Positions 17,297-63,804 of a DNA stretch of 64,000 bases are shown piece after piece. Numbering within the stretch: position 1 is the first letter of the stretch; every line of letters begins with the position of its first letter. The DNA is from an uncultured Pseudomonadales bacterium (GTDB lineage: Bacteria; Pseudomonadota; Gammaproteobacteria; Pseudomonadales; Balneatricaceae), in contig CALSNA010000006.1 in NCBI GenBank assembly GCA_943787595.1, forward strand, positions 1 to 64,000, read 5' to 3'. The notes below the pieces were generated by a model that ran no database searches, was not told the DNA's origin, and saw only the letters and a program-made list of their open reading frames with translations. Made by a program: the position numbers and the translations under genes.

Positions 17297-18637
17297 ATGT
17301 TGGAAAAAATTGTCATCGCTAACCGCGGCGAAATTGCCCTGAGAATCCTGCGTGCTTGCAAGGAACTGGGTATTAAAACTGTGGCAGTATATTCTAGGGT
17401 AGACCGGGATCTGATGCACGTTCGTCTGGCCGATGAAGCAGTTTGTATTGGTCCCAACCCATCCACTGAGAGCTATCTGAATATACCGCGTATTATTAGT
17501 GCTGCCGAGGTTACTGGTGCTTGCGCCATTCATCCTGGCTATGGATTTTTAGCTGAAAATGCAAATTTCGCAGAAATGGTCGAAAATAGTGGCTTCACCT
17601 TTATTGGTCCCAGCGCTGATGTGATTCGCACTATGGGAGATAAAGTTGCAGCCATCCAGACTATGCAAAAATCCGGTGTCCCCACAGTACCCGGCTCAAA
17701 TGGTCCCTTGGATGAAAACCATGAACGTACCCTGCACATTGCTCATGAAATTGGCTATCCAGTGATTATAAAAGCATCAGCCGGTGGAGGTGGGCGTGGC
17801 ATGCGAGTAGTACACTGTGAGACAGCTTTATTGAGCGCTATTGAAATAACCCAGACTGAAGCGAAAGCAGCATTTGGTGATGGCACAGTGTACATGGAAA
17901 AATTCCTACAAAATCCTCGTCATGTCGAAGTCCAGGTGTTAGCTGATGGTCAGGGCCAGGCTATTCATCTGCATGATCGTGATTGTTCCATGCAACGCCG
18001 TCACCAAAAAGTGGTTGAGGAAGCACCAGCCCCACATATTGATGCACAAGCACGTGCTAACGTGCTTAAGAGCTGTACTGACGCCTGCCTGTCACTTGGT
18101 TACAGAAGTGCAGGTACCTTTGAATTCTTGTATGAGTATGGTCACTTCTACTTTATCGAGATGAATACCAGAGTGCAGGTAGAACACCCAGTAAGCGAAA
18201 TGATCACCGGTATTGATATCATTAAGCAACAGTTGTTGATTGCCAGCGGCCAGCCTCTAGCTATTATGCAGAATGATGTGCAAATCAGGGGTCACGCATT
18301 TGAATGCCGTATCAATGCGGAAGATCCCAAATCGTTCCTGCCTTGCCCCGGCCAGGTCACTCAATTTCATGCTCCTGGAGGTCTTGGCGTACGGGTGGAT
18401 TCACATCTTTACAGTGGTTATTGTATTCCTCCTTACTACGACTCCATGATTGCCAAACTGATTACTGTAGCAGATACTCGTGAACAAGCTCTAAACCGCA
18501 TGCGTGTGGCTTTGGATGAAATGATTATTGACGGTATTCGTACCAATATTACCTTGCAAAGGGATATTGTGTGTGATGCTAAATTTGCTGCTGGAGGTGT
18601 TAACATTCACTATCTTGAAGAAAAATTAGGAATCTAG
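17297..18637 (+). CDS. accC: Biotin carboxylase subunit of acetyl-CoA carboxylase
   Basis: A 446-residue ATP-grasp enzyme that carboxylates the biotin of AccB with bicarbonate and ATP. The start [20 protein letters not shown] is nearly invariant. The glycine-rich ATP loop is [12 protein letters not shown]. Other conserved blocks are [40 protein letters not shown] and the CRINAEDP region. Length equals typical AccC. It is cotranscribed with accB. prmA, which often follows, is absent. Confidence 0.98.
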
Positions 18638-18810
18638 TTCAGCTACGCTATTGCTAAAAATCGGCTTGAGCAGCAAACCATGCAATCTTTACACAAAATG
18701 AATGCCCACATATACTCAACTTTGTTATTTTTAGATAATTAAACAAATTAGTTGTTCAGCCTCTATATTTCCATTAATATCGCGCTAGTTTATGAGGCAG
18801 TTTTGTATGA

Positions 18811-20187: not shown

Positions 20188-20847
20188 ATGGAGTCAATCT
20201 TTACTATTTATGAGACTACAGTAAGATATCTATGGATCATGTTTGCTACACTGATGCCAACTGCTCTGCAAGTGTTACAGGCTGATAATGTAAGGTCAAG
20301 GGGATACACTATTGTGCAGTCGCGGCCTCAGGAGCATGATTATCAGTGGTCTTACATCATTAGAGTTCCTGAGCGTGTTCAGGGTAAGATGCCTGTAGTT
20401 TTCTTTCTTCACGGTAACAGTGGCAGCGCAGAAGAAGCATTAAATTCATCTATTGATCGCAACAAGAGCATAGCAGACCGATATATCCTTGTGTTTCCAG
20501 ATGGATATCAGCATAGCTGGAATATCATCTCTGAGCTGCCCAAAGCAGATGATCGAGGTTTTATTGAAGCAATCATAATACAACCGGCAAGTTATGATAA
20601 TGTTCAGGATGAACTTGCAGCCAATTTATTCCGTCTAACTCAAACAGAGCTAAAGCTAAAAAACGAATCCATTCAAGGCCAAAGGGCTGCTGAGACCATA
20701 GCAAGTAAGGTAGGACAAAGAGTAAGAAAAGCAATGCTTGATATTAGTGGGGTTAAGCCAGAGGACATGCCCTTGCATGAAGATATTAACAAGGTTAAAA
20801 CTTCACTGAAACAAACACATAGAGGATTAAAGAAGATAGATGATTAA
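20188..20847 (+). pseudogene. Chimeric ORF: truncated LpqC-type esterase fused to DinD C-terminus
   Basis: A 219-codon open frame that looks like two unrelated genes joined. Residues about 35-130 resemble the N-terminal half of polyhydroxybutyrate-depolymerase/feruloyl-esterase (LpqC-like) proteins: MPVVFFLHGNSGSAEEAL, YILVFPDGYQHSWNI and the DDRGFIEAI segment. The chain stops before the expected GxSxG nucleophile. From about residue 140 it matches the C-terminal part of DNA-damage-inducible DinD: ELAANLFRLTQTELKLKNE, IQGQRAAETIASKVGQRVRK and the PEDMPLHEDI segment. The junction is near 20590-20605. With no catalytic serine and only a DinD tail, function is doubtful. The frame is nevertheless uninterrupted and ends 50-odd bases before a clear terminator. 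Confidence 0.6.
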
Positions 20848-20903
20848 TTATGGTAGCTCTCTCTAAAATCAAGTGCAATAGCCACCTTTGTATCGCTGAT
20901 GTA

Positions 20904-20925
20904 ACCCGCCTGACGCGGGTTTTTT
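20904..20925 (+). terminator. Rho-independent terminator
   Basis: The inverted arms ACCCGC and GCGGGT are separated by CTGAC and followed by a run of six T. It lies 57 bases after the chimeric ORF and 40 bases before the Sel1-repeat gene. Nearly the same hairpin recurs at 63874-63894. Confidence 0.8.
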
Positions 20926-20964
20926 ACTGTTGGTGGTTTTACCAGAAAGACAAAAGCAGGTTAA

Positions 20965-21456
20965 ATGATGGGTATGAAAAAAATAATCATCATTCCTTTA
21001 CTGCTGGCCTCATTGATCACCCCCATTAGTTGGCGGGGCGATTTTGATAAGGGCCTTGCTGCTGCCCTACGTGGTGACTACGCAACTGCCTTAAATGAAT
21101 GGATGCCTTTAGCTAAGCAAGGTGATGTCAGAGCACAGTTTAATCTGGGTTTGATGTACTATAACGGAACAGGTATTACTCAAAACTATAAGACAGCAAT
21201 GAAATGGTACACACTCGCTGCTGAACAGGGTCATGCCAGAGCACAGAACAATCTGAGTGTTGTGTACCTCCAAGGAGAGGGTGTTACAGAAAATTATATT
21301 AAGGCCCACATGTGGGCAAATATTGCTCGGTATAATGGATCTGAAAATACCAAAGAACTTATAGAAACCTTAGTTGAAAGAATGACTCAAGAACAAATTG
21401 CAAAGGCGCAAGACCTTGCTCAAGAATGTGTTGAGAAAGCCTATAAAGGGTGTTGA
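20965..21456 (+). CDS. Secreted or periplasmic Sel1-repeat protein
   Basis: A 163-residue protein with an N-terminal hydrophobic segment (KKIIIIPLLLASLITPISW), probably a signal peptide. Two Sel1-like (TPR-type) repeats follow at about residues 50-120: AKQGDVRAQFNLGLMYYNGT and AEQGHARAQNNLSVVYLQGE, each with YxxAxxWxxLA helices. The C-terminal tail has two cysteines (QECVEKAYKGC). Sel1 proteins act as scaffolds; the partner is unknown. Three near-adjacent ATG codons make the exact start uncertain. It lies between a terminator and the left copy of the long inverted repeat. Confidence 0.75.
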   Translation: MMGMKKIIIIPLLLASLITPISWRGDFDKGLAAALRGDYATALNEWMPLAKQGDVRAQFNLGLMYYNGTGITQNYKTAMKWYTLAAEQGHARAQNNLSVVYLQGEGVTENYIKAHMWANIARYNGSENTKELIETLVERMTQEQIAKAQDLAQECVEKAYKGC

Positions 21457-21555
21457 TTACATAGATCAACTCAGCACATTGGCATCTTTCATCACGACCC
21501 AGCACAACTCACACTGACCATTCTGGTCGCACTTCCCTCTAATTCCTTATACCCG

Positions 21556-22032
21556 TTAAACATTACCTGACAGGCTTTTGAGCCTAGACCAGCTGTGCCA
21601 TTACGCTCGGCCAAAAAAATTTATTGCCTGAAAAAATCACTACTCCTACCCCACCTGCGGTTTGTGTGGGTTATTTTTGTGCAGATGCACGGTCCGTGCA
21701 ATGGGTCAATGAAATCGATCGCAAAAGCCCAGCAGGGTAGGGTGCCTGGCTATCAAATCATATAAATTAGCGATTATTCTATAACGCACGATATGCACAT
21801 GATTTGCACTACTTTGGTGGCCAAAATGACCTGTAATTGTTATTTGGCGGGGGTTGTCAGAGGTATCTATTAATCAATCAATGTTGACATAAAGTTGACA
21901 TTTTTAGAGTTAAAATGCTGTTTGACATTCAGTTGACATAAAATATATTTTTAAAAAAATATATAAATTACAGTTACTTAATAATAACTAAAGCTAGCTT
22001 AAAGTTTAATAAATATGTGATTTTAGGATGAA
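21556..22032. repeat. Left copy of a ~480-bp inverted repeat (partner at 63317-63804)
   Basis: This segment aligns almost end to end, in reverse orientation, with 63317-63804. The match runs from the GTTTAA end, through a GCTCGGCC/GGCCGAGC block, a cluster of TTGACAT motifs and an AT-rich tract, to the TTCATCC end. Differences are mostly single substitutions and short gaps, plus a divergent patch around 21740-21800. The right edge coincides with an abrupt switch into GC-rich phage-tail DNA. No complete gene lies inside. In the minus direction a short frame, seen also in the other copy, encodes an AERNGTA..GSKACQVMFN stretch. Confidence 0.85.
21884..21939. promoter_or_regulatory. Four iteron-like TTGACAT motifs in two phased pairs (left repeat)
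   Basis: TTGACAT occurs at 21884, 21895, 21922 and 21933. The spacing is 11, 27 and 11 bases, so each pair places both motifs on nearly the same helical face. A tract of almost pure A/T follows. The layout resembles a repressor operator, integrase arm sites, or replication iterons next to an unwinding region. Which of these applies cannot be told from the sequence. The array is preserved in the right repeat copy. Confidence 0.6.
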
Positions 22033-22034
22033 CT

Positions 22035-22124
22035 GTACCTGGTGCCCCAGGCCCGATCGAAATATCTGGCCAGCGCTTTGGCTTTGGTGAGCACCACCTG
22101 GCCATTGCCCGGACCCTGGGCTAG
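22035..22124 (+). pseudogene. 3' fragment of an upstream phage tail/baseplate gene
   Basis: About 29 codons (ending FGFGEHHLAIARTLG, then TAG) are open immediately after the repeat boundary and stop 9 bases before the fibre gene. The tail LGEHHLxIA-like sequence is reminiscent of phage tail-protein-I C-termini. The gene appears truncated at the repeat edge. The assignment rests on position and a short match. Confidence 0.35.
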
Positions 22125-22132
22125 GAGATTTT

Positions 22133-23032
22133 ATGCCATCCATTATTAAAACCACCGTCACCGTCAAACTGTATGGTCCTGATGGTACCGTGATCAACCA
22201 GCACCGCAACCAGGTGGTCAACACTGGCCAGCACTGGATCGCTACCCGCATCACCGGTGGCGGCAAAGCCGTCAGCCACATCGAAGTGGGCACCGGCACC
22301 TCACCCGTGGCCAGCACCGACACCCGGCTGCAGTTACCCCTGCACCGCCAGTCACTCAAGGCCGGCGACTGGTGCAACCTGACCATCGGCTCTCAGGCCG
22401 ACGGCCACAAGGAGGTGGTTAAATGCACGGCGATTGAGGGCAATACCATCACCGGCCAGGCCCTGCGCCTTGGCTATCGCTCGGGCACCCTAGTGGCCCT
22501 GCAGTTCTGTGTCGAGACGGTGCAGGATATCGTGGCCGGAATCCGCCAGGACTGGATCGGCCGTTTCTTCTGGTCCGCCCTTGACGCCAGTGATGAACCC
22601 AGCGCCCTGTGTTGCGATGGGGCCGAGTACAGCCGCAGCGAGTACCGCACGATTTACACGATGCACGGCCCGGATGGCACCTACATCCTGGGACCGGGCA
22701 ATGGTTCTACCACCTTTACCATGTTTGATGCCCAGGGCCGGTATCGCCCCCGATGCCGGCCCTGGCTGGCCATGTTTCCAGACCACAGCAATTCCGGCGA
22801 TGTGCCCGGGTCCATTGAGGATGACCAGAACCGCCAGCACACCCACACCATCAACAGGGGTTCTACAGAGAACAAAGGCGGGCGCGATCGCCACGGGTAT
22901 GTCCAGACTGACACCACCGACGTACATACCGCTGATCCCGAACAAGCCAAAGCGGATGCCCTGAGCATCAGCGGTGGTGATGAGGCCCAGCCCAAAAATG
23001 TGGCCCTGCGGCTATTTATGTATTACCGGTGA
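22133..23032 (+). CDS. Phage tail-collar / tail-fibre protein
   Basis: A 299-residue phage structural protein in GC-rich DNA. The N-terminal ~110 residues (KLYGPDGTVINQHRNQVVN, GKAVSHIEVGTGTSPV) resemble tail-fibre N-terminal domains. The C-terminal half has the Tail-collar fold: a CDGAEYSRSEYRTIY block, GNGSTTFTMFDAQGRYRPR, a HTHTI segment, and the typical ending GGDEAQPKNVALRLFMYY. Such proteins attach to the baseplate and contribute to receptor recognition. AGGAG lies 5-6 bases upstream of the ATG. No frameshift is visible. Codon use is far more GC-rich than in neighbouring chromosomal genes. Confidence 0.85.
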   Translation: MPSIIKTTVTVKLYGPDGTVINQHRNQVVNTGQHWIATRITGGGKAVSHIEVGTGTSPVASTDTRLQLPLHRQSLKAGDWCNLTIGSQADGHKEVVKCTAIEGNTITGQALRLGYRSGTLVALQFCVETVQDIVAGIRQDWIGRFFWSALDASDEPSALCCDGAEYSRSEYRTIYTMHGPDGTYILGPGNGSTTFTMFDAQGRYRPRCRPWLAMFPDHSNSGDVPGSIEDDQNRQHTHTINRGSTENKGGRDRHGYVQTDTTDVHTADPEQAKADALSISGGDEAQPKNVALRLFMYYR

Positions 23033-23046
23033 CCGGAGTGTAGCCC

Positions 23047-23461
23047 ATGACTTTGACCATCAGCATCAGTGGTGCCACAAACCTGCAACGCCAGTTACAG
23101 GCCCTGTGTCTGTCCCGTGCAGATCGGTTGCGCTATCACCGCTATCTGGGGCGTGAGGCGGTCAAACTGATCAGGGCGAAGCTGGCCAGGCCACCCGGTC
23201 CCAGGCCAGGGCATTGCTGAATGCTGGCTACCGAAAACCCCACGGGGGGCGGTTCTCCCAGCGCTGGATTATGGATCATATGACCCAAAAACAGGCGGGC
23301 CTGATCCTGCGCCTGCTGCGGGACGAACCGGACGGCCGCAAGGGTTAGTGGACCATTGACCTGCCGGCTGGTCATTTTTGGGACTCACCCGGGAGGAACG
23401 GCGCCAGGTGGGTCAACAGGTACTTAACAGGATGCAACAGGCTGCACGGCACAGGAGGTAA
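23047..23461 (+). pseudogene. Frameshifted phage virion-morphogenesis (tail-completion) protein
   Basis: Starting MTLTISISGATNLQRQLQAL, the frame is open for 57 codons and stops at 23218-23220. Recognisable protein continues in other frames: GYRKPHGGRFSQRWIMDHM, then MTQKQAGLILRLLRDEPDG, then LTREERRQVGQQVLNRMQQA ending at 23461, just before the sheath gene. The pattern LGREA..IR.. followed by a late LGLT-type segment fits the phage virion-morphogenesis/tail-completion family, which sits next to tail-sheath genes. At least two frame changes make it non-functional. Family identification is moderate. Confidence 0.6.
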
Positions 23462-23465
23462 CACC

Positions 23466-24593
23466 ATGGCCATCGGATCAGTCACAATCAATCACAGTAA
23501 CCGCAACCAGGGCAGTTTTGCCGGGGTGGAAAAGAAGTTTTTATTTACTGGCCCGGGGAGCAACAGCGACAACGACGACCAGGTGCTGTCACTCAATGGT
23601 GACAGTGATCTGGATGCCCTGCTCGGAGCCAGTGCATCATTACTTAAAACCCAGCTGCTGGCAGCCCGGGTTAATGCCGGCAATCAGTGGCTGGCCTGGG
23701 CCATACCCACCGCCGGCGACTGGGCCGATGCCGTCAATCTGGCCCTGGAAAAGCCCCACGACCTGGAACCGGAGGCGGTGGTGGTCTGCACCCCCGTGAC
23801 CGAAGCCAGCCAGATCAAGGCCGCACAGGCCAAAATGGTCGACGTCAATCTCAAACACGGCCTGTTTTTAACCGCCCACCTGTGTGTGGCCGGTATTGAT
23901 GCCGCCAGTGAAAGCTGGGCGCAGGCCCTGGCCCGCATCAGGGGGCTGGTCAGCACCCTGGTGGCCCATCGGGTATCGGTGACCGCCCTGCTGCACGGCA
24001 ACGATCTGGGCGTGGTCGCTGGACGCCTGTGTCATACGGGCGCAAGAGTAGCCGACACCCCCATGATGAACCGCACCGGGTCGCTGGTTAATCTGGGTGA
24101 CAGCCCGGTAGACAAGGACCAGCAACCCCTGACCATGGCCCACATCAGTGACCTGGCCACGGCCCGGATCTCGGTGCCCCAGTGGCATGCCGGCCAACCG
24201 GGCATGTACTGGGCCGATCACCCCCTACTGGACAAGGCCGGGGGCGACTTTCAGGTGTATGAACACCTGCGCATCCTGGACTATGTGGCCCGGTGGGTGC
24301 GGGTGCTGGCCCTGGCCAAAATTGGCGACCGTAGTCTGAACGGTACGCCTAAATCCATGGCGTTCCATACCAGCTATTTTATGCGGCCCCTGCGGGAGGC
24401 CAGCCACGAGGTGATCGTGGACGGTGAACCCTTCCCCAGGCGGATTCAATCACCGCAACCGGAGCACCTGATCATCACGTGGGCAACCCGGACGAAGGTG
24501 GATATCTATATTAAAGTCCGGCCCCTGAACTGCCCCAAAGACATCGGCATCAACCTGATGCTGGATCTCAACCCAGCCCCTGCAGCGGAGTAA
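23466..24593 (+). CDS. Contractile phage tail sheath protein (DUF2586 family)
   Basis: A 375-residue protein matching the DUF2586 tail-sheath-like family. Characteristic stretches are LDALLGASASLLKTQLLAAR, EPEAVVVCTPVTEASQIK, LLHGNDLGVVAGRLCHTG, PLTMAHISDLATARISVPQW, FHTSYFMRPLREASHEVIV and the C-terminal KVRPLNCPKDIGINLMLDL. A strong AGGAGG precedes the ATG. Length is full for the family. In contractile tails the sheath surrounds the tube and drives injection. It lies directly before the DUF2597 gene, the usual order. The frame is intact although its neighbours are damaged. Confidence 0.9.
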   Translation: MAIGSVTINHSNRNQGSFAGVEKKFLFTGPGSNSDNDDQVLSLNGDSDLDALLGASASLLKTQLLAARVNAGNQWLAWAIPTAGDWADAVNLALEKPHDLEPEAVVVCTPVTEASQIKAAQAKMVDVNLKHGLFLTAHLCVAGIDAASESWAQALARIRGLVSTLVAHRVSVTALLHGNDLGVVAGRLCHTGARVADTPMMNRTGSLVNLGDSPVDKDQQPLTMAHISDLATARISVPQWHAGQPGMYWADHPLLDKAGGDFQVYEHLRILDYVARWVRVLALAKIGDRSLNGTPKSMAFHTSYFMRPLREASHEVIVDGEPFPRRIQSPQPEHLIITWATRTKVDIYIKVRPLNCPKDIGINLMLDLNPAPAAE

Positions 24594-24600
24594 CCCAGCC

Positions 24601-24873
24601 ATGACCACCCAGCGACTAAGCAGCCAGGCATTTGACATTACCATCGGTGACATTGCCGTGAATGTGACGAGCCTGACCCTGGACATCACCGACAACACGA
24701 CCATTGAGGTGTTCGGCTGCAAACTGGTGCTGACCAGTCTGCTGAACATTGACAACAGCAACAGCCCGACCCAGAGCACCGTCAAGGTAGATTTTATGGT
24801 GACCGCCAGCGATTTTGTGCGCATCAATGGCATTCCGTATCTGGCGCAGGACAACCTGCCCAGCCTGAACTGA
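24601..24873 (+). CDS. DUF2597-family phage tail protein with internal deletion
   Basis: A 90-residue protein whose two ends match DUF2597 (probable tail tube partner of the DUF2586 sheath). The N-terminal SSQAFDITIGDIAVNVTSLT with LDITDNT and the C-terminal EVFGCKLVLTSLLNID, VTASDFVRINGIPYLAQD are both typical. From memory, family members are about 135-150 residues, with a 50-60 residue domain between LDITDN and the FGCKL block. Here those blocks are directly joined, suggesting an in-frame deletion near 24690-24710. The product would lack the centre of the fold and is probably inactive. The gene follows the sheath gene by 7 bases. Confidence 0.75.
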   Translation: MTTQRLSSQAFDITIGDIAVNVTSLTLDITDNTTIEVFGCKLVLTSLLNIDNSNSPTQSTVKVDFMVTASDFVRINGIPYLAQDNLPSLN

Positions 24874-24883
24874 GGACAAAATC

Positions 24884-25125
24884 ATGGCCAAGATCACAGC
24901 CCTTTATCTGGAACGCTTTGCCTATACCCCTGAAGGCACCCTGGGCCGGCTGGCCCTGCCTGAGCGAACGATCTACACCCTGAAGCCGCCCTGGCGCGAC
25001 AATCAGGTGAACATCAGCTGCATACCCGAGGGACCTACACGGTCAAACGCAACACCACCGGCCGCTGGAAATATTACAGGGTGCAACAGGTGCCCGGCCG
25101 AACCCACATTATTTTTTGTAACTGG
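24884..25125 (+). pseudogene. Frameshifted, truncated DUF5675 phage protein
   Basis: Begins MAKITALYLERFAYTPEGTL and continues to PPWRDNQVNISCIPEG, the hallmark LPWRDNxxxISCIPxG of DUF5675. One base is then missing near 25031, and TYTVKRNTTGRWKYYRVQQV, then PGRTHIIFCNW, continues in another frame. Homology stops at about 25125, where the sequence runs into a gene on the opposite strand. DUF5675 genes occur in phage tail or lysis regions; the function is unestablished. Confidence 0.65.
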
Positions 25126-25349
25126 TTCAGCTGCTGGCTGATTTTTTCCAGCTGGTCCTGGCGTTGCTTTTGTTCGGCAATCCATTGCTCCACATGATTC
25201 AGCCGCCGGCTGTTGATCTCAATGTCATGCTCGATACCGCTGCTGTACTGGATCACGCCCACGATCATCACGATGATGGTCAGAATAGTGGTGATCCATT
25301 TGGGCATAATCCCCAGCCACCTGATTTGATCTGTTTTTCGTAGCCCCAT
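25074..25349 (-). CDS. Small membrane-anchored coiled-coil phage protein, 3'-truncated
   Basis: A roughly 91-residue protein with one transmembrane helix (WITTILTIIVMIVGVIQYSS) and a Gln/Glu-rich coiled coil (RLNHVEQWIAEQKQRQDQLE, ISQQLNQLQK). I chose the internal ATG giving MGLRKTDQIRW because GAGGGA lies 7 bases upstream. The last ~12 residues are read through the antisense of the DUF5675 remnant, so the natural C-terminus has been replaced. Size and topology resemble phage lysis-cassette accessory proteins (spanin- or DUF2730-like), but no family is certain. It faces the tail genes, which suggests a deletion junction. Confidence 0.5.
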   Translation of the reverse strand: MGLRKTDQIRWLGIMPKWITTILTIIVMIVGVIQYSSGIEHDIEINSRRLNHVEQWIAEQKQRQDQLEKISQQLNQLQKIMWVRPGTCCTL

Positions 25350-25405
25350 GGCCCGGTCCCTCAATGGTCAGGGACCACACCCCATGTTACACTTGACCTG
25401 CCGTA

Positions 25406-25422
25406 AAAGGCCGGGGGCCTTT
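25406..25422. terminator. Compact GC-rich hairpin at the end of the phage remnant
   Basis: Perfect 7-base arms AAAGGCC and GGCCTTT enclose a three-base GGG loop. A-rich sequence precedes the stem and T residues end it, but no long T-run follows. It is probably a phage-derived bidirectional terminator. It is close to the right-hand limit of the GC-rich segment (about 25490). Confidence 0.45.
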
Positions 25423-25695
25423 GGTCGCATAACAGGATGTGGTCCTGCTTTGACAGCTGGCCGGGGTTTAGGAAGTTTCGGCTAGCTGCCCTCGTTTTTA
25501 TGTCACTGTATTTTGGGTACCGAGTTATACACTCAACGAATAAATTTAAATTCATTTCAATATTTTATATTGGAATCAAGTGTATCTACCCTTACCGCCA
25601 TTCCCTATGAACAATGAAGATAGTGTATGACTGACATCGCAGCACAAATCTAGAATGTAACGACAAATTTTAAATTACCTAGGCTAAATGAGAAT

Positions 25696-35644: not shown

Positions 35645-38600
35645 TTACTGCAAGTCAGTTGATTTTGGCTTAACAAGCCAGAACTTACTGATGTAATCAT
35701 CAAAGTGATCACTAAGTTCAAATCTCCAATGGCTACCTTTTACCATTGCAAATTCTTGCATCATAGTTCGTAGGTAACTGCGGTATTCTTCCATCTGTTC
35801 ACCACGAATGAGGTGAATATCCACTAATTCACGATTAAATTTATCCACAAAGGTACGATTCATATCCAGAACATAGGCAAAACCTCCAGTCATGCCAGCA
35901 CCAAAGTTATAGCCCGTCTCACCCAGTATGGCCACAACACCACCTGTCATATATTTGCAGCAATGATCACCAGCACCTTCAAACACAGCATATGCACCTT
36001 CATTACGTACTGCAAAACGTTCACCAGCTCGGCCTGAAGCAAACAAGACGCCACCTGCGTTCCAAGCCCCAAAGCTAACCCCAGCCACACCCTTGAAATT
36101 AGCTATTAGAGGAGTACCAAACATGCCCAAGCTACCATGTTGTTTGACAATGGCACCAGAAACCCGAGCACCTATAGATCCATCACAGTTATTAATATCG
36201 AAACTAAAATCACCACCATGCCCAGCAGTAATGAAGGAGCTCATTACATCCAGCATATGTTGGTTCAAAGTAGCTTTATCATACGGCACATTGCGTTCTA
36301 CTTGGCAAATATGTAGCACATTTGTGGCAATTCCAGCTTGACTGAGCAGAGGCTTGAGATTTAATTTTTGCTGTTTGGCTGTTATTCCAGAATCAGTTTG
36401 TAACAGGTCAGTACGTCCAGCCAGATGATCAAGGTTAGATGCACCTAGTTTTGCCATCCATTCATGAGTTTCTTGAGCAATAAAGGTAAATAGGTGTTTA
36501 ACCATGTCCACTGTACCGGAGAAATGATCTTCTCGCAGTTGCTGGTTCTGGGTGGCTACTCCTGTGGCACAATTATTGAGATGACAGATGCGCAAGTATT
36601 TGTAGCCCAGTGCTACCATGAGCAATGTGCCAAAGCTAAAGCTCTCAGCTCCTAAAGGAGCTGCCTTGATGGCATCCAATCCAGTTTTCTGTAGTTTAAC
36701 TTTGCTTCGCAGGCCATTACCGCGCAAGGTTTGGTGACACTCAGCTAGACCCAGCTCCCACGGTGAACCTGCAGGGCGGATGGAAATTAGAGGACTGGCT
36801 GCAGTACCGCCATCATAACCAGATATGGTGATCAAATCAGCGTAAGCCTTAGCTACTCCTGCAGCAATAGTACTCACACCTGGGCGTGATACCAGTTTTA
36901 CCGACACCAGTGCTGAAGGGTTGACTTGTTTAAGATCAAATATCAATTGTGCTAGGTCTTCAATGGAATAAATATCGTGGTAGGGAGGTGGTGAAATCAA
37001 AGTAACCCCAGGCACTGAATAGCGCAATGAGGCAATTATTTCATTGACCTTAGTACCAGGTAACTGGCCTCCTTCACCTGGTTTAGCACCTTGGGCAATC
37101 TTAATCTGAATGACTTCAGCATTCACTAGGTAATGCGTTGTCACTCCAAAGCGTCCGGAAGCGACCTGCTTTATCTTAGAGCAACGATTACTACCGTAAC
37201 GCGCTGGATCTTCGCCACCTTTACCAGAGTTAGAACGGCCACCGAGCAGGTTCATGGCTACTGCCAAATCCTCGTGGGCTTCAGGCGACAATGCCCCCAG
37301 TGACATAGCAGCAGTGTCAAAGCGTTGTAATATGGCACTTAATGGTTCAACTTCAGACAGTGGTATAGATTTGACCTCCCGTAACTGCAACAAATCACGT
37401 AAAGTGGTGATTGAACGCTGATGGACTAAATTCGCATAGCACTGATAAGCTTTGTGATCACCAGTTCTTACTGCTCGTTGTATAGTCTGTATAACATCTG
37501 GATTAAATGCATGGTACTCCTGTGCATGAACATACTTAATTAAACCACTGGGATGAACTGGTTGACGAGGTTTCCAGGCTCTATCGGCAAGCAACTGATG
37601 ATCTGCTTGGAAGTCTGTAAAGCAAGCTCCGGCAATGCGGTTATTCACCCCAGTAAAACATAGGCTGACCACCGACTGACCAATCCCAACTGCCTCGAAT
37701 AATTGAGCCCCGCGATAGGACGCAATGGTAGCAATCCCCATCTCGAGAGAATTTTCACAAGGCTCTTGTTAATGCCTTTTCGATAAGCTTTGTGACAGAC
37801 CTTAGGCTCACCTAGGATGATGCCGCTGATGATCATATCGTTCATGATCCGATAACTGAGGTAAGGATATACAGCAGTGGCACTAAGGCCAATTAAAACA
37901 GCAAAGTGATGAGTATCCCGAGCACTGCCAGTATCAATAACCAGATTGGCTTGACAACGCAGTCCAACATTGGCCAAGTGGTGATGTACCGCACCCGTAG
38001 CCAGAGCTGCTGGCACTGGCAGCTTTCCTTCCTTAAGATTTTGGTCAGTAAGGATAATGATAATCTTGCTTTTATGTACAGCTGTTTTATCAGCAGTACA
38101 AATATCCTTAATAGCCTGTTGTAAACCTGATCTAGGCTCATAGTTTAGATCAATCAATTGGATGGCATATTAGGCATAACATGCCTCAAGGCAGTGAATT
38201 TACTGGCTGACATCACAGGCAAACCTAACACGATACGTCGAGCTAATTCAGGACTTTCCTGAAAAATATTGCGCTCATGACCCAAACAGGTTTCTAAAGA
38301 CATCACCATTGCCTCTCGCAATGGATCAATAGGTGTATTAGTTACTTGGGCAAATTGCTGGCGGAAGTAGTCATATACTGGACGACATTGGCTGGATAAT
38401 ATCGCCATGGGTATATCATCACCCATAGAACCTACTGCTCCACGACTATTTTCGGCTAGGGGGCGGATTACCTGATCACATTCCTCAGTGGTCACTTGAA
38501 ACATCTTCATGTGTTGTTGGAGCTTAGCATGACTAAAATCTTCAAAGGATTGGCCATCGTCAAATTTTGACTCAAATCGGATAGCTGATTTATGCAGCCA

Positions 38601-39878
38601 TTTTTTATATGGCCGCATTGTTTTGAGACGTTGATCAACATCCTTTGTATGCATCACCTCACCAATATAAGTGTCCACCGCTACAATTTGGCTAGGCCCT
38701 ACACGTCCCTTGGCAACTACTATTTCAGGAGCATAGGCAAATGTACCAACTTCTGATGCTGCACAAAGATAACCATCCTCGGTAATCATTCAGCGAGAGG
38801 GCCGCAAACCATTTCGATCCAGCATACAAATAGCATAACGACCTGTTTTTATGACTACGCCGGCAGGTCCGTCCCAGGCTTCCATATGCATAGAGCTATA
38901 TTCATAGAATGCACGTAAATCTGGATCCATCAGTTCATCATTTTGCCAAGCTGGTGGCATAACCACACGTATAGCGCGGAATACATCCATACCACCTAGT
39001 ACTAGCAATTCAATCATGTTGTCTATACTGGAAGAATCTGATCCAGTAGTATTAATCAATCCTTCCAAATCCTGTAATTATGGAATTAATGGTGTGGTTA
39101 ATAGGGATTGTCTTGCACGAACCCAATTCCGATTTCCGTAAATGGTATTAATTTCGCCATTATGGGCCAAGAATCTAAATGGTTGAGCTAGGTGCCAGCG
39201 CGGTTCTGTATTGGTAGAAAAGCGCTGGTGGAATGTGCAAATTGCTGTTGTTAGGTTTGGATTACTCAGGTCCCGATAAAATACCAGCAAGTCAGCTGGC
39301 ATCATTAGACCTTTATAGGAGAACACACGGTGAGATAAACTACAGATATAAAACGCAGTATCCGTGATTAAGGCATACATGGTTTTTTTCGCGCTACCAG
39401 AAGACCTGCTTCCATTACTTCACCACGCATATGGTGGCTGTTAACAAAGACCTGCTCAATACGTGGCATCGTGGCTTTGGCGATGTGGCTGACAAGCTTT
39501 ATTCACCGGCACATCACGCCAACCGACTACCGTCATACCACTGTTTTCAAGTGCTTGATTAAGAGTATTGCGTGAATGAACTGCCTGGTCATGATTTTGC
39601 GAAAAAAATACCATTCCGACAGCAAAACATTCGGTTAACTCAACAGCAAAACTATCATAAGCAGCCTGACACATAAATTGATCTGGCATCTGCAATAACA
39701 GGCCACAGCCATCACCAGTTTTGCCATCTGCCGCTATACCACCTCGGTGGGTCATACAAGTCAGGGATTTAATGGCTTCCTGCAATAGACCATAACTGGC
39801 ATAGCCATGCAGATGGGCAATCAGTCCAAAACCATAGTTATCCTTAAATTCCTTGGGGTTGTATAAGCTGCTGTTCAT
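35645..39878 (-). pseudogene. gltB: Glutamate synthase large subunit, degraded
   Basis: Nearly the whole GltB sequence is recognisable, starting MNSSLYNPKEFKDNYGFGL, but split over six frames. Breaks are a frameshift near 39380-39456, a TAA at 39078-39080 (LIP-stop-LQDLEG), a TGA at 38790-38792 (LRPSR-stop-MITEDG), a frameshift near 38155 and another near 37741. The last 698 codons remain open and contain the FMN and 3Fe-4S synthase region ([37 protein letters not shown]). In addition the N-terminal amidotransferase cysteine expected in DNCGFG is a tyrosine (DNYGFG). The gene is non-functional. Confidence 0.94.
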
Positions 39879-58224: not shown

Positions 58225-58794
58225 ATAATATCAGCCATAAGTAGAGGATGAAGCCACATCCAGTAATCGACGAAGCGGTATGTTTCCAATTGCAGTATGT
58301 GGCCGTTCGTTATTGTATGCCCAAAGCCACTGTGTCGCTAACAATTGCGCATGCTCGATATTGTTAAATGGATGTAACTCCAGACATTCATGTCGAGCCG
58401 TTCGGTTAAATCGTTTGATACAGGCCCATTATTACAGCATGTCGCATGAGGCTTTACTTCCCTCACCATCTGATGATTTGTTTCAGTGCGCTTTTACACG
58501 AAGGCTTGGCAGCGACAGATCAACTTCAATACCCAAAGCACCAGCATTTATTAGTTCTGGTTAAGGGTAATAACTAGTCTACAATTTCTGCATTTTCGTC
58601 TGACAGTTTACGCTGATAGTGATAACAGCCCAGCAAAATAGAGAACACCAGACAAGCCACACGAATACTCACCAAGTAATCATTATAGGCACGCAGTAAC
58701 ATCTCTCTACGTCGAGATGGTGTTGTAACTATCCCCTAAACTAATACACATCACTCGTAGAATTTTTTATAAGATATCCCAGAGCAGTTTTACG

Positions 58795-59055
58795 ATGAGC
58801 AAACGCATGACCGAAAGCCAAATAGTGGCAATTTTGAAAGAAGCTGACGCTGGTATGGCAATAAAAGATATCTGCCGTAAATATAGCGTAGCCAATTCAA
58901 CTGTTTACAAATGGCGAGAAAAGTATGGCGGCATGGAAGCCTCTGATGTTAAACGCTTAAAAGAGCTTGAAGAAGAGAACCGTAGGCTTAAGCAAATGTA
59001 CGCTGACTTAAGTCTTAAATCTCAGCTACAGGAAGAAATCATAAAAAAGCTGTAG
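58795..59055 (+). CDS. IS3-family transposase OrfA
   Basis: An 86-residue protein with a helix-turn-helix (ESQIVAILKEADAGMAIKDI, CRKYSVANSTVYKWREKYGG) and a leucine-zipper-like tail (DVKRLKELEEENRRLKQMYA). It binds the terminal repeats and forms the N-terminus of the frameshift fusion with OrfB. The last codons read ATA AAA AAG CTG TAG, containing a slippery A_AAA_AAG heptamer in the correct phase at 59043-59049. Confidence 0.9.
   Translation: MSKRMTESQIVAILKEADAGMAIKDICRKYSVANSTVYKWREKYGGMEASDVKRLKELEEENRRLKQMYADLSLKSQLQEEIIKKL
59043..59049 (+). promoter_or_regulatory. Programmed -1 frameshift site (A_AAA_AAG)
   Basis: The heptamer AAAAAAG is phased as A AAA AAG in the orfA frame, four bases before the orfA stop. 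OrfB lies in the -1 frame. Slippage would yield an OrfAB fusion continuing AVVPVAERK. This is the standard way IS3 elements make active transposase. Confidence 0.8.
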
Positions 59056-59870
59056 TGCCTGTGGCAGAGCGCAAAGTCTGGGCTCAGGAGTTACAGGCCA
59101 CACACCAAATCGGTGTAACAATGAGCTGTAAAGTCGTTTCTATAAGCCGAACGGCGTTTTATTATCAGCCAACGCTGACAGATGATAGTGCCATTATCGA
59201 TGCACTGAATGACTTGGTGGAAAAACACCAGAGGTGGGGCTTTCCTAAGTGTTTTAAGCGGCTGCGTAAGCTAGGCTATCACTGGAACCATAAGCGCGTA
59301 TATCGCGTGTACACGGAGTTAAAGCTCAACCTTAGGCGCAAATCCAAACGAAGGTTACCGCCAAGAAACCCCGAACCATTAACGGTGCCAAATCATCAAG
59401 GGCACACATGGTCAATGGACTTTATGAGTGACCAGCTGCATAACAAGGTGCGTTATAGAACATTTAACATCATCGATGACTTTAACCGCCAGCTATTAGG
59501 CATTGATATAGCCACCAGCATTCCATCGTTGCGTGTTATACGTTATTTAGACAGGTTGTGCGAATGGCATGGTTATCCAGAGAAGATTCGGGTTGATAAC
59601 GGCAGTGAATTCACGTCAAGCGTGTTTACCGATTGGGCTTTAGCTCACAGTATCAGAATTGACTATATCAAGCCTGGTTGCCCGTATCAAAACGGCTATA
59701 TAGAGCGTTTTAATCGTACATATAGGCATGAAGTATTGGACTTATATTGGTTTAAAAACCTACAGGAGGTTAAGCAGATAACGGACGAATGGATTGAAAT
59801 TTATAACACCCAAAGGCCGCATGACTCGCTCAATGATATGACGCCCACTGAGTATAGGAATGCAGCTTAA
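59055..59870 (+). CDS. IS3-family transposase OrfB (DDE catalytic domain)
   Basis: A 271-codon frame with an N-terminal HTH_21 region (KHQRWGFPKCFKRLRKLGYH, WNHKRVYRVYTELKLNLRRK) and an rve integrase core. The DDE residues are visible: Asp in TWSMDFMSD, Asp in IRVDNGSEFTS and Glu in NGYIERFNRTYRHEVLDLYW, spaced as in IS3. The C-terminus has WIEIYNTQRPHDSLNDMTPT. It overlaps the OrfA stop (TAGTG) and is probably made mainly by -1 frameshifting rather than from its own GTG. Confidence 0.92.
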   Translation: MPVAERKVWAQELQATHQIGVTMSCKVVSISRTAFYYQPTLTDDSAIIDALNDLVEKHQRWGFPKCFKRLRKLGYHWNHKRVYRVYTELKLNLRRKSKRRLPPRNPEPLTVPNHQGHTWSMDFMSDQLHNKVRYRTFNIIDDFNRQLLGIDIATSIPSLRVIRYLDRLCEWHGYPEKIRVDNGSEFTSSVFTDWALAHSIRIDYIKPGCPYQNGYIERFNRTYRHEVLDLYWFKNLQEVKQITDEWIEIYNTQRPHDSLNDMTPTEYRNAA

Positions 59871-60114
59871 ACTGTCTACGAGGTGGCTGTGTTAAGAATG
59901 GGGTATTTACAGTGTGACCACTTTTTTCCAGTAGCTTCGTGAGTAATTTCAGCCTTAAGCTTTTCTTTGGCATATATTTTCTTGAAGTGGCGATTGTAGA
60001 CAATTGTAGAAAGTCGCACTCCTCATGCCGTGTTTTCGGCACAGGTCTGTGATGGCAGGGCCTGACTCTGCTTGCTTTAAGTCGGTATAACGTGATTTTT
60101 CCATAAAAAATCAT

Positions 60115-63316: not shown

Positions 63317-63804
63317 TTCATCCTAAAATCACATATTTATTACACTTTAAACTAGCTTTAGTTATTATTAAGTAACTGTAATTTATATATTTTTTAAAAA
63401 ATATATTTTATGTCAACTGAATGTCAAACAGCATTTTAACTCTAAAAATGTCAACTTTATGTCAACATTGATTGATTAATAGATACCTCTGACAACCCCC
63501 GCCAAATAACAATTACAGGTCATTCTGGCCACCACAGTAGTGCAAATCATTTGCAATCATCTGCATACTGTGCAATATAAATTAATGCTTAATTTGTATA
63601 ATTTGTTAGCAAAGTGCCTGGCTCTGCTGGGCTTTTGCGCTCGATCTCACTGACCTATTGCACGGGCAGTGCATCTGCACAAAAATTACCCACACAAACC
63701 GCAGGTGTGGTGGGAGTAGTGTTTTTTTCAGGTGATAAATTTTTTTTGGCCGAGCGTAATGGCACAGCTGATCCAGGCTCAAAAGCCTGTCAGGTGATGT
63801 TTAA
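63317..63804. repeat. Right copy of the ~480-bp inverted repeat (partner at 21556-22032)
   Basis: Read in reverse, this segment matches 21556-22032 with high identity. It begins 8 bases after the DUF1111 stop. A short frame at about 63614-63806 (LPTQTAGVVGVVFFSGDKFF, LAERNGTADPGSKACQVMFN) spans part of it but is interrupted in the left copy, so it is unlikely to be a gene. The flanks of the two copies are unrelated, so the ends given are good to a few bases. Confidence 0.85.
63410..63465. promoter_or_regulatory. Four iteron-like ATGTCAA motifs in two phased pairs (right repeat)
   Basis: ATGTCAA, the complement of TTGACAT, occurs at 63410, 63421, 63448 and 63459 with spacing 11, 27 and 11. 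The same array with the same spacing occurs in the left repeat. The AT-rich tract is conserved alongside. Confidence 0.6.

Follow-up and report, generated by a model that had tools for sequence, protein, structure and literature searches.

An array of four TTGACAT words in a 64,000-nucleotide stretch of Pseudomonadales DNA (the window) is very probably a set of arm-type tyrosine integrase sites, located on the lysis-side (P') arm of attP in HP1/P2-like temperate phages whose decayed prophages lie across the genome. This assignment rests on the att context in related phages, where similar arrays accompany a tRNA, att repeats, and an integrase gene (int). The position, spacing, and orientation of the array, and its att context in homologous phages, can be read directly. 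In the arrangement that we propose by analogy with known systems, the N-terminal domain of the integrase would hold the two TTGACAT pairs, the words of each pair lying one helical turn apart, and the catalytic domain would work at a core about 90 bp from the arm words. The A/T-rich DNA between arm sites and core would be bent, Int rather than another phage protein would bind the words, and the crossover point would probably lie at GGAT plus about seven bases. Systems of this kind are already known; the interesting parts are a distant integrase family and apparently relaxed targeting. So read, an anonymous intergenic repeat becomes a mark of phage integration.

The window holds two copies of the array, in opposite orientations. 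Exact TTGACAT occurs in copy 1 on the plus strand at 21884-21890, 21895-21901, 21922-21928, and 21933-21939, and in copy 2 on the minus strand at 63410-63416, 63421-63427, 63448-63454, and 63459-63465. The earlier note had described four exact words with 11-27-11 spacing next to an A/T tract, and both the spacing (starts at 21884, 21895, 21922, and 21933) and the adjoining tract were confirmed in the sequence. The total number of TTGACAT words in the window is unremarkable (17, versus a mean of 14.56 in shuffles). Clusters of at least four TTGACA words within 60 bp occur three times in 297 kb of DNA from the same genome, some stretches of which were counted twice, and not once in 60 dinucleotide shuffles. 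Thus, the clustering of TTGACA words, unlike their number, is far beyond chance.

Features of the repeat, its attachment region, and its near-full copies
Feature	Position	Strand	Basis
Terminator-like hairpin, left homology limit among Sel1-bearing copies	20903..20921	+	
Cargo gene ahead of the attachment region, encoding a 163-aa Sel1-repeat protein	20965..21456	+	
Non-coding attachment-side region of the repeat, copy 1	21612..22029 (start about)	+	
Terminator-like hairpin, best conserved part of the non-coding region	21653..21671	+	
Array of four TTGACAT in two pairs, proposed P'-arm integrase binding sites	21884..21939	+	words and spacing; matching plan in relatives
A/T-rich tract from arm sites to junction, possible bend	21940..21970	.	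sequence
Right terminus of the repeat, GTGATTTTAGGAT, a proposed half of the att core	22017..22029	+	nine copies aligned
HP1-type tail gene remnant, apparent integration site of copy 1 (tail fibre-like, DUF2586, HP1 Orf24)	22022..25532	+	
Seven variable bases plus two positions, the last a C; proposed overlap and target half-site start	22030..22038	+	
Non-coding region in copy 2, which lacks Sel1	63320..63804	-	
Identical inverted TTGACAT array in copy 2	63410..63465	-	
Near-full copy, window copy 1			
Near-full copy, window copy 2			
Near-full copy (L015/L083)	C3:218k		
Near-full copy (L016/L084)	C4:358k		
Near-full copy (L017/L085)	C3:185k		
Near-full copy (L018/L086)	C5:134k		
Near-full copy (L019/L087)	C3:90k		

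The array belongs to a dispersed repeat with 14 whole or partial matches over all six contigs of its own 2.28-Mb genome (two of them pieces of one place, C5:304.7k) and none in the 56 other genomes searched. Seven matches are near-full copies of the non-coding part, and the others are fragments. A Sel1-type ORF stands beside the repeat at five loci (window copy 1, L083, L085, L087, and L091), and L084 keeps the last few Sel1 codons; the L091 copy stops short of the array. The earlier note had the array preserved in both repeat copies. This is true of the two window copies, but all four words are exact in just three of the seven near-full copies (the two in the window and L086): one word is changed in L083 and three in L084, L085 is without the fourth, and L087 has lost part of the third. 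Copies with unconserved motifs, which the earlier note would have counted against its proposal, thus exist in part, yet they are compatible with the decay of dead prophages. The comparison of substitution inside and outside the motifs that the note had called for favors constraint, with a mean pairwise difference among the seven copies of 0.048 at motif positions and 0.121 outside the array; when the same layout was placed elsewhere, 8 of 250 placements were as conserved as the actual motifs. Positions 21612-21735, which include the hairpin, are also well conserved (pairwise difference 0.067), so the array is not the sole constrained part. To call it the most likely functional core of the repeat, as had been done, is therefore right in part only; the repeat also has the Sel1 gene, the conserved hairpin, and the junction at 22029.

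An insertion sequence or MITE finds no support: none of the 11 inverted repeats of 20850-22150 forms a terminal pair, and the one gene of the unit is Sel1. A structured RNA was rejected as well: no Rfam family reached its gathering score in the window, and three weak matches in 20850-22140 all fell below it. As a separate observation, the two repeat copies are inverted around 41 kb of chromosome (window 22033-63316), and homologous recombination between them might invert this segment.

The repeat resembles the right-hand end of HP1/P2-type prophages that have decayed. Beside its copies lie 1.9 kb with 97% identity to the lysis/tail genes of a prophage on contig C1 (in L083) and 2.1 kb with 95% identity to the tail region of that prophage (in L086). 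Integrase pieces adjoin copies in L088 and L093, and integrase fragments lie just past the window beside copy 2 (C6:64875-65441 and 66613-66723); L084 gave no phage match beyond the repeat itself. The C1 prophage is a near-complete sibling in the same genome; Pfam recognized its integrase, terminase, portal, and DUF2586 genes, and it has further tail-type ORFs. Its lysis-side end is at a tRNA-Leu(TAA) (L095:2165-2251). The stretch ahead of this tRNA aligns with the part of the window repeat that holds the hairpin, and, by eye, the two have the box GGCGGGGGTTGTC in common. The C1 array of (T/G)TGACA words is irregularly spaced (10-9-10-36-11), its nearest word 55 bp from the tRNA-Leu. No 12-mer shared with the tRNA region, which might mark the second att end, was found up to the contig end. 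Two further features of this prophage are a pair of TIR-domain and HEPN-domain genes outboard of its integrase (L096:16954-17715 and 18204-18668), possibly anti-phage cargo, and, at its other end, a ParA-like gene split into two ORFs (L095:2759-3869).

The C1 integrase has no close relative in the genome contig, viral contig, or phage collections, and no match in 50,697 phage records. Nor was one found among 115 other genomes of the family search (E 1e-40) or in the class sample, which covered 368 others (E 1e-12). An order-level search yielded a homologous integrase in 6 of 389 other genomes. The contig of one (G430) ends inside int, and in four of the remaining five, pairs with 11-bp spacing adjoin int or lie at the att end opposite to it. 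In G449, the att cores are marked by a 49-bp direct repeat, and one of them overlaps tRNA-Met; there are four TTTGACA words (11-18-11) on the lysis side and a single pair on the int side. G371 has a 46-bp att repeat in tRNA-Arg and, beside it, four GTGACA words with the 11-27-11 spacing of the window. The int-side pair is present in G198, whose core is a tRNA-Leu 3' half by eye, and in G423, where no core was recognized. The exception is G240 (integrase 40% identical), which carries no such pairs, not even at a tentative 15-bp att repeat.

Two viral contigs carry both arms. L170 (near-duplicate L187), with an integrase 35% identical to that of C1, has in order four sites (11-37-11), a core that resembles a tRNA 3' end by eye, one pair, and int, along with tail-type and primase genes resembling those of C1. 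L227 (integrase 39% identical) has four sites (11-27-11), a similar core by eye, one word, and int. In two Oceanobacter loci, L289 and L340, the array is separated from tRNA-Arg by 68 and 57 bp, respectively; L289 carries genes like two C1 tail-type ORFs, and L340 has no match to C1 proteins. These four loci were found by the array pattern and so are not independent evidence of its presence. With integrases about 35 to 40% identical, the relatives show, as far as sequence can tell, a common plan of four (T/G)TGACA words in two 11-bp-spaced pairs, a probably tRNA-derived att core, a further pair, and int. Across seven aligned regular arrays, the step from pair to pair is 27 (window, G371, and L227), 18 (G449 and L340), 17 (L289), or 37 (L170), and these steps would differ by about one helical turn.

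Other features of the arrays fit an integrase arm at least in part. On the lysis side, each four-site array points toward the core, and the int-side pairs are oriented alike. The sites lie within about 150 bp of the att core, as seen directly in G449 and G371; the C1 array is beside tRNA-Leu, and the att core of the window copies is inferred from the junction at 22029. The same word is found on both arms in G449 and L170, L227 has a single int-side word, and G371 is without a clear int-side pair; only one arm was seen in C1, G198, and G423; in the window lineage, a degenerate int-side pair was seen by eye near the end of contig C6, and none was detected by script. A cognate integrase gene lies beside attP in L170, L227, G449, G371, G198, and G423, and window copy 2 has integrase fragments only. 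Six aligned integrases have N-terminal residues in common, such as RG.RR near residues 31-35 of C1 Int, and Pfam recognized no arm-binding domain in these integrases.

TTGACA is also the consensus of the sigma-70 -35 hexamer, and the region might be a promoter at the end of the repeat; TTGACA-16-TATATT at 21922-21949 matches 11 of 12 positions. Such promoter-like sites are no commoner than in shuffles (3 versus a mean of 3.4), the word is GTGACA in G371, L170, and L227, and a promoter leaves unexplained both the four copies in phased pairs and the same plan at tRNA att sites. We consider this explanation highly improbable.

The main rival to integrase arm sites is that the words bind an excisionase, that is, a recombination directionality factor of the Cox/Apl type, in which a small HTH protein covers direct repeats at att, spaced by one turn, and thereby bends the DNA there. 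There is precedent in Apl of phage 186, which binds five direct repeats 10 to 11 bp apart at att and also binds the lysogeny switch (PMC7498355). C1 has a candidate for such a protein in a small HTH-like gene (L096:15010-15330, judged by eye) adjoining a repressor-like gene. Against this, the same words occur on both arms, four plus two, in G449 and L170. Moreover, pairs at 9 to 12 bp are found only at att in C1, G449, G198, G371, G423, L170, and L227 (some spans partial), with none between the two HTH-like genes of C1. Since Apl binds both att and the switch, the 186 pattern is not reproduced in C1, but not every excisionase binds the switch, so the absence of pairs there is not conclusive. 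Overall, we regard excisionase sites as unlikely and integrase arm sites as the better reading.

To assess the array pattern as a detector, we counted it in viral sequences, where 108 stretches carried it, versus 25 and 20 for two control patterns. The PF00589 domain was present in 17 of 50 array records, mostly kilobases from the array, and in 6 of 42 controls; the 50 were drawn from the 108 by dropping near-duplicates by eye from the first 80 and taking the first 50 of the remaining 56, and the 42 were drawn from 45 loci by dropping three further loci on one contig. With an integrase profile built from six sequences and a proximity cut-off of 600 bp, 4 of 108 arrays lay near a profile-found integrase (1.6 expected), two of the four being near duplicates, and 0 of 25 and 0 of 20 controls did so. 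None of 72 genome stretches with the pattern was near a profile-found integrase, and five had a tRNA no more than 250 bp away (0.91 expected), although two of the five are long tandem repeats. The pattern was therefore rejected as proof on its own, being diagnostic in neither the viral nor the genome collection, and we used it only together with integrase, tRNA, or phage genes. Used so, the rule of (T/G)TGACA pairs one turn apart, at steps of 17/18, 27, or 37, is of help in locating att sites for an integrase family that is without a close match in the phage records. On one viral contig, an 11-28-11 array (L188:5128-5182) lies between a tRNA-like 3' end, judged by eye, and an integrase; no protein of the C1 phage finds a match on this contig at E 1e-5, which suggests a similar arm plan in another phage type. 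Viral contigs L127-L234 carry KTGACA arrays with 11-bp spacing, about four to five times commoner than controls and with few near an integrase, and form a second, unexplained class.

Arrays of this kind, many of them in viral contigs away from any profile-found integrase, invite another explanation, namely, that the words serve a plasmid, satellite, or phage as repressor operators or as iterons for replication, and direct repeats beside an A/T tract do look iteron-like. No replication gene was recognized among the neighboring ORFs scanned, which include genes for Sel1, tail proteins, imelysin, and a di-haem oxidoreductase (a 219-aa ORF at 20188-20847 had no Pfam match). At E 1e-5, a search with repeat copy 2 gave no relatives among 72,556 plasmid and 50,697 phage records, and the putative C1 switch region lacks matching pairs. 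Thus, of the three options in the earlier note, integrase arm sites gain support from the att context in related phages, and repressor operators and iterons, which we rate as very improbable, gain none.

The right ends of the repeat bear on where the integrase would act. Nine right ends were aligned; GGAT is exact in seven, with GTAT in L083 and GCAT in L087. The next seven bases are variable, and the ninth base after GGAT is C in all nine (GGAT-N8-C). Among 20,000 random sets of nine flanks, 2 had a C or G column conserved in all nine anywhere in 50 columns, and 24 had such a column of any base. Window copy 2 and L086 both carry CCACTACA just past the variable bases and so may not be fully independent. 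Copy 1 is flanked by DNA from inside a tail-region gene, and the C1 prophage has this gene without interruption (sequence TTTATGGATGAACTGTACC at the target, TTTAGGATGAACTGTACC in the window); within the genome, the other half of the interrupted gene was found only in the C1 prophage itself.

ARAGORN found no tRNA in the window, and the only tRNAs at the loci from this genome are the C1 tRNA-Leu and one tRNA-Leu about 7 kb off in L083. The window-type ends lie at nine unrelated places, none with an adjoining tRNA. From this we read that the lineage uses short degenerate targets for its integration, whereas its relatives target tRNAs; that the integrase family uses tRNAs is drawn from relatives whose target could be read. 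The nine junctions with GGAT-N8-C suggest that the window-repeat lineage integrates with relaxed specificity. More tentatively, and with somewhat less than even confidence, we propose that the lineage switched from a tRNA to a short degenerate target (GGAT, seven free bases, one more, and C) and could insert almost anywhere, and that it came to occupy nine or more sites of this genome, including one within another prophage, and brought a Sel1 gene family along. Elements of the Tn916 type, which insert almost anywhere, offer a comparison. Alternatively, the ends may have been scattered by rearrangement and deletion of fewer original prophages. We found no left junctions of window-type copies, and with the left ends missing, the crossover itself is no more than probable; the junction pattern common to the ends argues against such scattering. 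The nine natural junctions provide material for asking how a tRNA-targeting integrase might lose specificity.

Among the closest known systems are mycobacteriophages, whose arm sites have been predicted as pairs of short repeats flanking the core (PMC3203893; PMC10865867). In the attP sites of CrimD, Pixie, Giles, and L5, short-repeat pairs likewise flank a core overlapping an RNA gene, a prediction based on repeats beside int; Giles and L5 have directly oriented pairs, as here, whereas CrimD has two pairs that are mutually inverted (PMC3203893). The arrays described here differ from those of mycobacteriophages in a lysis-side arm with two pairs, in the word (T/G)TGACA, and in hosts that are Gammaproteobacteria or same-order relatives. 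P2, HP1, and 186 share with our phages HP1/P2-type tail genes, a tyrosine integrase, direct repeats at att, and an HTH-like gene near a repressor-like gene (PMC4111918, PMC7498355). The integrase is distant from theirs, with C1 Int unmatched in phage records and the best matches of the G449 integrase at about 20% identity. Like the lineage suggested by the window-type ends, phi24B has a tyrosine integrase that can use several host sites; it differs in being lambdoid, and the nine sites here are inferred from dead copies (PMC7581858). We found no published match for TTGACA integrase arm sites at attP, which says little, since most subscription papers lay outside the scope of the search.

Two features of the window stand apart from the repeat. 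A segment of about 1.19 kb (58721-59911) recurs at 99.7 to 99.9% identity in L086 (11659-12849) and where contig C4 begins (L094:1-1189), and its ORF in L086 encodes what we take to be an IS3-type transposase. At 35645-38789, the glutamate synthase large subunit is spread over separate ORFs, like a decaying gene.
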